The notes below the pieces were generated by a model. That model was given only the letters and a program-made list of their open reading frames with translations. It ran no database searches and was not told the DNA's origin. A program made the translations under genes and the position numbers. From Flavipsychrobacter sp. (GTDB taxonomy: Bacteria; Bacteroidota; Bacteroidia; Chitinophagales; Chitinophagaceae), in NCBI GenBank assembly GCA_016786665.1, contig JAEUVZ010000032.1:64001-128000 (forward strand): a DNA stretch of 64,000 nt, in the 5' to 3' direction. Below are positions 4,078-6,387 of the stretch, one piece after another. Within the stretch, counting starts at the first letter, position 1; each line of letters begins with the position of its first letter.

Positions 4078-4380
4078 ATGCGTGTACTAGCAAAGGGGAC
4101 ATTGCGGGCTTTTTGGGAAAAGAAGCAATTTAAAGACTCTGAGCAACCGCTTAAAGCATGGTATAAGGTAATTAGCGATAGGAGCTGGGCGGATCCGCAT
4201 GAGATTATTGGTTATTTTAAGGATGCGGACCAGGTAGGTAATGGAAGGATTGTATTTAATGTATGTGGTAACAGATACCGTCTAATAGTAGCATTCCGAT
4301 ACGATATTCAGATAGGGTATATACGTTTTTTAGGTACCCATAAGCAGTACGATAAAATAGAGGATATCAAAAATATTTAG
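4078..4380 (+). CDS. higB: HigB-family mRNA interferase toxin
   Basis: A 100-aa basic protein of the HigB_toxin family (RelE-like fold). Members cleave mRNA, usually on the ribosome. The N-terminus MRVLAKGTLRAFWEK and the C-terminal part RYRLIVAF...GYIRFLGTHKQYDKI are characteristic of this family: the central strands end in RFLGTH and are followed by a short helix. The toxin gene comes first and the antitoxin starts 18 nt after its stop, which is the usual higBA order. Base composition is lower in GC than in the flanking genes, compatible with horizontal acquisition. The frame is intact, so the toxin is presumably functional. Confidence 0.9.
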   Translation: MRVLAKGTLRAFWEKKQFKDSEQPLKAWYKVISDRSWADPHEIIGYFKDADQVGNGRIVFNVCGNRYRLIVAFRYDIQIGYIRFLGTHKQYDKIEDIKNI

Positions 4381-4398
4381 GATAAACATAAAGCAGTG

Positions 4399-4764
4399 AT
4401 GAAGAAACCGGGAATAGAAATCAGGCCGATAAGGAGCAAGAAGGACTATAATGCAGCACTGAGGCAGATAGAAGCTTTGTGGGATTCGCCGCCTAAATCA
4501 GTAGAGGCTGAGGCGCTGGAAGTTTTGTCTATTCTGGTTGATGAATATGAGAATAAACATTTTCCCATAGAAGCGCCGGATCCTATAGAAGCGATAAAAT
4601 ATAGAATGGAGCAGCTGAGCCTGACACAGCAGGACCTCGCAAAGTACCTTGGCGGGAAGAGCCGGGTCTCAGAAGTGTTAAACCGGAAACGCCCACTAAC
4701 CTTAAAAATGATTAAAGCGCTCTATCAGCATCTGCACATCCCTGCAGAAGCCCTGATAGCTTAG
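4399..4764 (+). CDS. higA: HigA-family antitoxin with XRE-type helix-turn-helix
   Basis: A 121-aa partner of the preceding toxin. The N-terminal half (EIRPIRSKKDYNAALRQIEALW) is the typical HigA segment that wraps the toxin. The C-terminal half (about 70-121) is a helix-turn-helix containing LTQQDLAKYLGGKSRVSEVLNRKR. It should neutralise HigB and repress the operon through the palindrome at 4040-4056. An in-frame GTG at 4396 precedes the ATG at 4399; the ATG is preferred. Its stop codon overlaps the stop of the convergent anti-sigma gene at 4761-4764. Confidence 0.92.
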   Translation: MKKPGIEIRPIRSKKDYNAALRQIEALWDSPPKSVEAEALEVLSILVDEYENKHFPIEAPDPIEAIKYRMEQLSLTQQDLAKYLGGKSRVSEVLNRKRPLTLKMIKALYQHLHIPAEALIA

Positions 4765-5249
4765 TTTTCCAGTACTCTTTTTCTCTTTCTGCGCAGTAGT
4801 GTGTCGGCAATCAGTACACATACCAAAGCATGCGCCATAATAATGTAGGTGATGTAGCCACCGGATGAGAACCGGCTTTGGCTGAAAAGCCCGTTGGGAA
4901 CTTTTTCCGGCCAATCTACCCTCATCAATGCATAGGTGATGGCGCTACCCAGCAGCAATGCCATTACTGACGCAATGCTCCGTACCACCCATTTATTAAT
5001 GTACGTGTTGGCCGGCGTGGCCAGGGAGTTTTTTGCTATCTGCTCCATAACATTCCGGGTAAAGCGCATCGACGGATGACCTGGTTCTATCCGTTCCATT
5101 TCCGAGTGAAATGCCATCAGCACGGTATATTGCTGTTTCCAGGCATCGTCGGTTGCAATAAGCTGGCTGATACGTTCCCGCGCCGCGCTATCGCATACAC
5201 CATCTATGTACTCCCACAATTGTACCTCTATGTCTTCAGCGCTATGCAT
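4761..5249 (-). CDS. Membrane anti-sigma factor candidate, partner of the adjacent ECF sigma factor
   Basis: A 162-aa protein encoded 14 nt after the ECF sigma gene in the same operon. The first 70-80 residues are soluble and start with a short helix (DIEVQLWEYIDGVCD) like that of cytoplasmic anti-sigma domains. No complete zinc-binding HxxxCxxC motif is present. Two hydrophobic segments follow (SIASVMALLLGSAITYAL at about 91-108, and one at about 132-150), ending in the basic stop-transfer RRKRKR. The role as anti-sigma factor is inferred from gene order and layout. Its stop codon overlaps that of higA on the opposite strand. Confidence 0.7.
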   Translation of the reverse strand: MHSAEDIEVQLWEYIDGVCDSAARERISQLIATDDAWKQQYTVLMAFHSEMERIEPGHPSMRFTRNVMEQIAKNSLATPANTYINKWVVRSIASVMALLLGSAITYALMRVDWPEKVPNGLFSQSRFSSGGYITYIIMAHALVCVLIADTLLRRKRKRVLEN

Positions 5250-5263
5250 ATCTTAACTGTAAT

Positions 5264-5812
5264 TTACAGATGTTTTAATTCTTCTTTGTACTCTGCCTCC
5301 AGTATTTCCTTCAGCTTTTGCCGGGCGCGGAACAACCGCACTTTTACATTGCTTTGGCTTAGCCCAAGTATCTGCCCCGTTTCTTCTATGCTTTGCTCGG
5401 CCAGGTAAAACAGGGTGATGATTTGCGCGTCAGTTTCGGGTAGCTGCTTTATGGCCTGCTGTATCACGTTCTTGCTGTGTTTGCGATCCTCCGGGGCAGC
5501 TACCTGTTCGTGGTGTTCTTCCAGCGTTACGATCGCTTCTTTCTTCTTCCGCTTATGCGACCGGCATGTGTTGTGCGTGATGGTATAGAGCCAGGTACTG
5601 AATTTGCTCTCTCCACGAAAGTGGCTAAGCGAGCGGTAGGCTTTCACAAACACATCCTGAGCCAGTTCTTCTGCTTCTTCGCGGTTATCTACAAACCGCA
5701 GGGTAATGGTAAATACAAAATGCTGATACCGCTCTACCAGTATGGCAAAGGCTTGCTGCTGCCCGGCCAACACCTGCCTGATGATATCAGAATCCTGTGA
5801 TTGTTTCTGCAT
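5264..5812 (-). CDS. ECF-subfamily RNA polymerase sigma factor (sigma-70 family)
   Basis: A 182-aa extracytoplasmic-function sigma factor. Region 2 (about 23-92) contains the core-binding and -10-melting segments, with DNREEAEELAQDVFVKAYRSL and FSTWLYTITHN as landmarks. Region 4 (about 118-172) carries the -35-binding helix-turn-helix (SIEETGQILGLSQSNVKVRLFRARQKL). Regions 1 and 3 are absent, as expected. An ECF-type promoter (TGTAACC-N16-CGTC) lies directly upstream on this strand at 5823-5851, and a similar one faces the divergent gene at 5977. This indicates autoregulation and at least one linked target. The anti-sigma candidate follows in the same operon. Confidence 0.94.
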   Translation of the reverse strand: MQKQSQDSDIIRQVLAGQQQAFAILVERYQHFVFTITLRFVDNREEAEELAQDVFVKAYRSLSHFRGESKFSTWLYTITHNTCRSHKRKKKEAIVTLEEHHEQVAAPEDRKHSKNVIQQAIKQLPETDAQIITLFYLAEQSIEETGQILGLSQSNVKVRLFRARQKLKEILEAEYKEELKHL

Positions 5813-5822
5813 TTCCTTCTAC

Positions 5823-5851
5823 TAGACGCCCCATCCTAAATATAGGTTACA
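5823..5851 (-). promoter_or_regulatory. ECF-type promoter upstream of the sigma factor gene
   Basis: On the minus strand, TGTAACC (revcomp of 5845-5851), exactly 16 nt, then CGTCTA (revcomp of 5823-5828). The CGTC ends about 12 nt from the sigma gene ATG at 5812. The -35 AAC core and -10 CGTC are typical of ECF promoters in general. The same arrangement appears on the plus strand 48 nt away. Confidence 0.72.
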
Positions 5852-5898
5852 TACCCCAAACTGCTCCCTCCTCATTTAAGAGACGGCCGGGGTGGGGT

Positions 5899-5927
5899 TG
5901 TAACCTTTTTGTTGCGGGCGTCGTCAT
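5899..5927 (+). promoter_or_regulatory. ECF-type promoter upstream of the DUF6249 gene
   Basis: TGTAACC at 5899-5905, exactly 16 nt, then CGTCAT at 5922-5927, leaving about 50 nt before the ATG at 5977. Bases and spacing match the element in front of the sigma factor gene, which supports use of one sigma factor for both transcripts. Confidence 0.72.
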
Positions 5928-5976
5928 AGTTGGTAACCGATGATAATGTCGGGCAGCTTTTAAAAACGAACTACGT

Positions 5977-6387
5977 ATGGGGCCGGAAGAAATAATTATA
6001 CCCGTGGTGGCTATTACCAGCATCTGCATCACGCTTTTTGGATTGTATTATCTGCGCAATAAAGAGAATATGGCGCTGATAGAAAGAGGCATTAATCCCA
6101 GGAGCGCCTCTCCCGATGAACCGCGGCGTTTTTCAGCGCTAAAGTATGGGCTTATGTTCGTAGGTGGGGGGCTGGGGCTGGCAGTCGCTTTCCTGGTAGA
6201 GCGGGCCCTGGCCAAAGTATCCATAGAAAAGTATCCCGAAGAGTTGGCTAACGGGCAGGTGTTTGAAAGGACCGTCACCCGGACGGAAGATTTCCCACAG
6301 TTATACTTTGCTTTTATTATACTGGGGGCGGGCCTGGGTTTGGTAACGGCCTACCTGTTGCTGCGCAACGCCACAAAAGACAGATAG
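5977..6387 (+). CDS. DUF6249-like small inner-membrane protein, probable ECF sigma target
   Basis: A 136-aa membrane protein with three hydrophobic segments at about 6-25, 56-72 and 108-127. The soluble stretch after the first segment, RNKENMALIERGINPR, is a recognisable feature of the DUF6249 family found beside ECF sigma genes in Bacteroidota. The biochemical function is unknown. It is divergent from the ECF sigma/anti-sigma pair and shares a matching ECF-type promoter, so it is probably induced with them, perhaps in envelope stress. Start chosen at the first ATG; no competing start fits the first membrane helix. Confidence 0.72.
   Translation: MGPEEIIIPVVAITSICITLFGLYYLRNKENMALIERGINPRSASPDEPRRFSALKYGLMFVGGGLGLAVAFLVERALAKVSIEKYPEELANGQVFERTVTRTEDFPQLYFAFIILGAGLGLVTAYLLLRNATKDR

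Follow-up and report, generated by a model that had tools for sequence, protein, structure and literature searches.

Matching divergent promoters of the ECF type lie between an ECF sigma factor gene and a DUF6249 membrane protein gene and are conserved in relatives

Two matching promoter sequences of the ECF type were found on opposite strands between an ECF sigma factor gene and a divergently oriented gene for a small DUF6249 membrane protein. Comparison of genome sequences makes it very probable that both promoters are read by the adjacent ECF sigma factor, in an arrangement in which the sigma/anti-sigma operon would be autoregulated and the DUF6249 gene would be its most constant target. 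The features of the locus, which is located in a window of 64,000 nucleotides (the whole stretch of DNA that was analyzed), are collected in Table 1.

Table 1. Features of the sigma/DUF6249 locus, with positions in the window
Feature	Position	Strand	Description
ECF sigma factor gene	5264..5812	-	182 aa; sigma regions 2 and 4
Probable membrane anti-sigma factor gene	4761..5249	-	162 aa; 14 bp downstream of the sigma gene
DUF6249 small membrane protein gene	5977..6387	+	136 aa; three predicted helices
Divergent intergenic region with both promoters inside	5813..5976	.	164 bp; gap between the sigma and DUF6249 genes
Sigma-side ECF promoter	5825..5851	-	-35 TGTAACC at 5845-5851, 16-nt spacer, -10 CGTC at 5825-5828
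DUF6249-side ECF promoter	5899..5925	+	-35 TGTAACC at 5899-5905, 16-nt spacer, -10 CGTC at 5922-5925

The sigma-side site has the sequence TGTAACC-TATATTTAGGATGGGG-CGTC, and its end lies 12 nt upstream of the sigma ATG (5812). The DUF6249-side site has the sequence TGTAACC-TTTTTGTTGCGGGCGT-CGTC, and its end lies 51 nt upstream of the DUF6249 ATG (5977). Both were located exactly where the sequence-only reading had placed a matching pair of TGTAACC-N16-CGTC elements on opposite strands, each with a 16-nt spacer. AAC in the -35 element and CGT in the -10 element, the combination expected of promoters read by ECF (group IV) sigma factors, were present at both sites. The complete pattern matched exactly twice in the window compared with a mean of 0.02 in dinucleotide-shuffled sequences, and none of 100 shuffles contained two matches, which bears out the earlier claim that such a pair is unlikely to arise by chance. 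With a transcription start 6-7 nt beyond the -10 element, the sigma-side leader would be approximately 5 nt long. In the three bases that follow the sigma-side CGTC (5822-5824), the third is G in the window and A in 42/47 relatives; the sigma-side promoter could be weaker for it.

The sigma protein contained the Pfam domains Sigma70_r2 (residues 25-91, 2.6e-20) and Sigma70_r4_2 (residues 116-167, 3.1e-15) and no other domain, and the possession of regions 2 and 4 only identifies it as an ECF (group IV) sigma factor. It scored 116 bits against the TIGR02937 sigma70-ECF model (cut-off 42.9), and its closest relatives in the PDB were AlgU (1.6e-27), SigW (3.2e-23) and RpoE (5.1e-22). Assignment to one of the named NCBIfam ECF subfamilies was also tried. 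The best score was for SigW (116.6 vs. a cut-off of 209), RpoE (112.5 vs. 236) and GFO_1088 (94.8 vs. 130) were likewise below their cut-offs, and no curated cut-off was passed for SigM or the other named subfamilies.

Structural modeling and the homologues of the protein indicate that the next gene of the operon, which the sequence-only reading does not mention, probably encodes an anti-sigma factor. The predicted protein consists of an N-terminal helical domain that is anti-sigma-like and of C-terminal membrane helices, and its gene was kept beside the sigma gene in relatives. There was no Pfam match above cut-off for the protein itself; a weak match to zf-HC2, the anti-sigma zinc-finger family, was observed in 10/30 of its aligned homologues. 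The N-terminal helices of the model resembled RsiW, MucA, PupR, RslA and RseA with a best E-value of 0.28 and with Z values of 5.0-6.4, which are attainable also between small helical domains, and anti-sigma factors were enriched in the list of fold matches. Because these matches are weak in E-value and modest in Z, they support the anti-sigma role of the protein and do not prove it. On the plus strand at 4078-4764, a HigB-type toxin gene (PF09907, 4.7e-29) precedes an HTH antitoxin-like gene, and the ends of the latter and of the anti-sigma gene overlap by 4 bp.

The DUF6249 protein is a member of PF19762 (E = 1.5e-15, 57.5 bits vs. a gathering cut-off of 33). Its AlphaFold model, with a mean pLDDT of 84, showed helices at residues 3-36, 53-78 and 107-135, and the protein carries the conserved stretch (K/R)ENMAMIEKG. 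The protein probably acts in the inner membrane. A fold search with the model gave nothing better than an E-value of 0.1 (connexins were matched at a low TM-score, which is uninformative), and the only mention found in a literature search for DUF6249 concerns a plant gene family.

The locus was compared across 117 genomes of the same family, in which the sigma gene was called at E <= 1e-30. The sigma gene was present in 48/117 genomes and the DUF6249 gene in a nearly identical set, and by manual count the two were divergent neighbors in 43 of the 48 sigma-plus genomes. The exceptions were three genomes in which the genes are unlinked (G004, G005 and G105), one in which a contig end falls between them (G095) and one in which they lie on the same strand (G112). 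The upstream regions were scored for ten fixed letters (TGTAACC + GTC) with spacers of 13-21 allowed. The best spacing was 17 before GTC, equivalent to 16 before the four-letter -10 element, and 9 or 10 of the 10 letters were matched at this spacing in 47 of the 48 regions on the sigma side and in all 46 on the DUF6249 side. The sequence-only reading had named a lack of both motifs in relatives that share the gene pair as one result that would overturn it, and the motifs passed this test. A full score of 10/10 was reached by 42 sigma-side and 42 DUF6249-side regions, compared with 0/960 and 1/920 shuffled regions, respectively.

Conservation was concentrated in the two elements. TGTAACC was conserved at 94-100% per column and GTC at 98-100%, compared with mostly 30-60% in the spacer columns, and the flanks vary too. 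Likewise, when the intergenic region was aligned with that of a relative of the same genus and of two others, both -35 boxes and the GTC elements were kept and the remainder had mostly diverged. The -10 element is variable across the family, being CGTC or GTAGTC: its first letter is C in 21/47 and A in 20/47 sigma-side sites, and A in 31/46 DUF6249-side sites. The distance from the end of the motif to the sigma start codon was 8-14 nt in nearly all relatives, so that a start 6-7 nt beyond the -10 element would give a leader only a few nucleotides long, and the distance to the DUF6249 start codon was mostly 42-69 nt. Two tandem copies of the motif were observed before the DUF6249 gene in 20/46 relatives, mostly 63-72 bp apart and in three cases 88-102 bp apart (loci L043, L044, L050, L052-L059, L062, L063, L065, L066, L069, L071, L073, L078 and L128).

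The genomes with unlinked genes allow the motif to be followed away from the shared gap. On one contig of G004, 275 kb separate the DUF6249 gene from the sigma gene, and two copies of the motif precede the DUF6249 gene; in G005 and G105 it lies on a contig other than that of the sigma gene and has one copy each. Had the motif been kept merely as a relic of the gap between the two genes, one would expect it to be missing before these unlinked genes. Because the motif is conserved in relatives, including those in which the DUF6249 gene has been relocated, the autoregulation of the ECF sigma factor and the direct control of the DUF6249 gene, both proposed in the sequence-only reading, appear well supported.

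Between genomes, the distribution of the motif parallels that of the sigma gene. By hand tally, TGTAACC-N14-GTMGTC had 78 matches in the 48 sigma-plus genomes (control 17), compared with 4 in the 69 sigma-minus genomes (control 28). When the loci were read, 51/77 distinct matches in sigma-plus genomes were promoter-like, defined as lying between genes and no more than 120 nt from a start codon, compared with 1/29 in sigma-minus genomes. The sigma and DUF6249 promoters account for approximately 20 of these 51 matches, and the single promoter-like copy in a sigma-minus genome (G027) precedes a DUF2807 gene. Sequence comparison shows the motif with its spacing and position, and its inheritance together with the sigma gene. 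Recognition by the adjacent sigma factor is inferred: AAC/CGT promoters are common to several ECF groups (PMC8103513), and since this motif class is shared by many ECF factors, the letters alone do not single out the adjacent one. The genomes of the family hold several sigma-like genes, many of them first-look candidates, whose products may read similar promoters, and both sites could be real ECF promoters read by a different ECF sigma factor through cross-regulation or a cascade. This is unlikely, however, because the motif shows enrichment in no genomes but those that carry the adjacent sigma gene, accompanies the DUF6249 gene away from the locus, and precedes the sigma gene of the same family across the class.

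The -35 and -10 elements were assigned by their similarity to those of known ECF promoters, and the motif might instead be a transcription factor site or another DNA element unrelated to sigma recognition. Such an element is very unlikely given that the motif is non-palindromic, has a single orientation towards each gene and an invariant spacing of the kind usual in ECF promoters, and lies at a short and almost constant distance from the start codon of the sigma gene.

Genome-wide work on the 3.5 Mb genome of the window consisted of pattern searches. TGTAACC-N15-[GT]CGTC gave 2 matches, both at the sigma/DUF6249 locus. The loose form TGTAAC-N16-18-CGTC, of the kind that the sequence-only reading had proposed for a search (TGTAAC-N15-17-CGTC), gave 11 matches vs. 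34 for a reversed-pattern control, and beyond the locus nearly all of them lie within ORFs. Since these matches are below the control and nearly all in ORFs, the loose pattern defines no wider regulon here. Matches with one mismatch were all inside ORFs and revealed no wider regulon in this genome, and the upstream regions of the two DUF2807 homologues found in it were without the motif. In this genome, the motif marks the sigma/DUF6249 locus only; a regulon may be built on weaker sites. The lack of enrichment of the loose pattern is the one point in favor of a chance match of common letters, an explanation with next to no probability left, since 0.02 matches are expected in the window and conservation in nearly every relative already refutes it.

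In some relatives, the motif is more widely distributed, and only there does the proposed candidate regulon motif point to a wider regulon; in the genome of the window it was limited to the two sites. The other promoter-like matches in relatives form recurring groups. The first consists of DUF2807 (head GIN) lipoproteins, with approximately ten genes behind the motif and a few more in which the ORF reading overruns the site; the motif lies 15-57 nt before the starts (L141:1162-1188, L143, L147, L139, L150, L113, L124, L254, L257 and others). The second consists of small secreted proteins, nine in number and 120-160 aa long, one of which has a sub-threshold PepSY-like match (loci L085, L096, L101, L126, L133, L137, L151 and L154). 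These promoters would be read by the same sigma factor, and the presence of the motif before lipoproteins and secreted proteins suggests an envelope-related regulon and an envelope response in these relatives.

The association of DUF6249 with an ECF sigma gene extends beyond the family. DUF6249 was found above cut-off in 84/296 genomes of the phylum, and matches occurred beyond Bacteroidota too, in the Caulobacter and Haloferax controls. Seventy phylum loci, taken from the top in order of DUF6249 score and thus covering the stronger members, were read and 68 were scored; the two unscored loci, which were missed by the DUF6249 model of the script, have a sigma gene. An ECF sigma gene was near the DUF6249 gene in 68/68 scored loci, divergent in 62 and in the order DUF6249-sigma in 6. 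Blind counting of spaced word pairs (dyads) in one family (f5) recovered GTAAC-N18-GTC, which has the same spacing as the motif of the window, in 35/36 upstream regions (null maximum 9). In more distant families, the same counting gave a mixture of TGTAACC and TGAAACC.

Our data suggest a mechanism in which the adjacent ECF sigma factor would direct RNA polymerase to both promoters of the 105-bp stretch. The sigma factor would be released by the membrane anti-sigma factor encoded by the next gene of the operon. Once free, it would activate its own sigma/anti-sigma operon in a positive feedback that also produces more anti-sigma factor, and would activate the divergent DUF6249 gene as well. The DUF6249 protein may contribute to the stress response or act as a partner of the sigma/anti-sigma pair in its feedback. 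More tentatively, DUF6249 might be more than an ordinary target, namely an obligatory third member, cooperating with the anti-sigma factor, of an ECF module found across the phylum; on the same tentative footing, the two membrane proteins might sense an envelope signal or shut the response down.

Bacteroidota have many ECF sigma factors, the promoters and targets of which are mostly unknown. With the adjacent sigma factor as the probable reader of both sites, one ECF family gains a precisely defined promoter (TGTAACC-N16-[C/A]GTC), a candidate anti-sigma factor and a target that is nearly universal, and the uncharacterized DUF6249 family gains a functional context, as an ECF sigma gene stands beside every scored locus of the phylum sample.

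The original description of ECF factors lists AAC at -35, CGT at -10, a co-transcribed anti-sigma factor and positive autoregulation as hallmarks, and approximately 55% of ECF factors are predicted to be autoregulated (PMC8103513). The arrangement proposed here agrees with this description, and an autoregulated ECF operon is thus a known kind of arrangement (PMC8103513). Within Bacteroidota, the report on Flavobacterium psychrophilum SM6 describes mapped transcription starts with a CGT -10 box, including that of one ECF sigma/anti-sigma operon, a similar promoter in a similar position; in contrast to the window, its table selection includes no DUF6249 gene and its text no TGTAAC (PMC9723704). 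The locus is similar to the autoregulated ECF sigma/membrane anti-sigma operons RpoE-RseA, AlgU-MucA and SigW-RsiW in that the sigma factor has regions 2 and 4 only, with AlgU, SigW and RpoE as relatives, an anti-sigma-like gene with a domain resembling RsiW, MucA and RseA lies directly downstream, and a promoter with AAC at -35 and CGT at -10 precedes the sigma operon. In contrast to these systems, the anti-sigma protein of the window is without a zf-HC2 match, and the -35 element is TGTAACC rather than the TGAAAC of SigW or the GGAACTT of RpoE (PMC6713349). The window also differs from all three systems in that a DUF6249 gene with a twin promoter stands divergent to the sigma gene, and this tie between DUF6249 and an ECF sigma family appears to be new and unreported.
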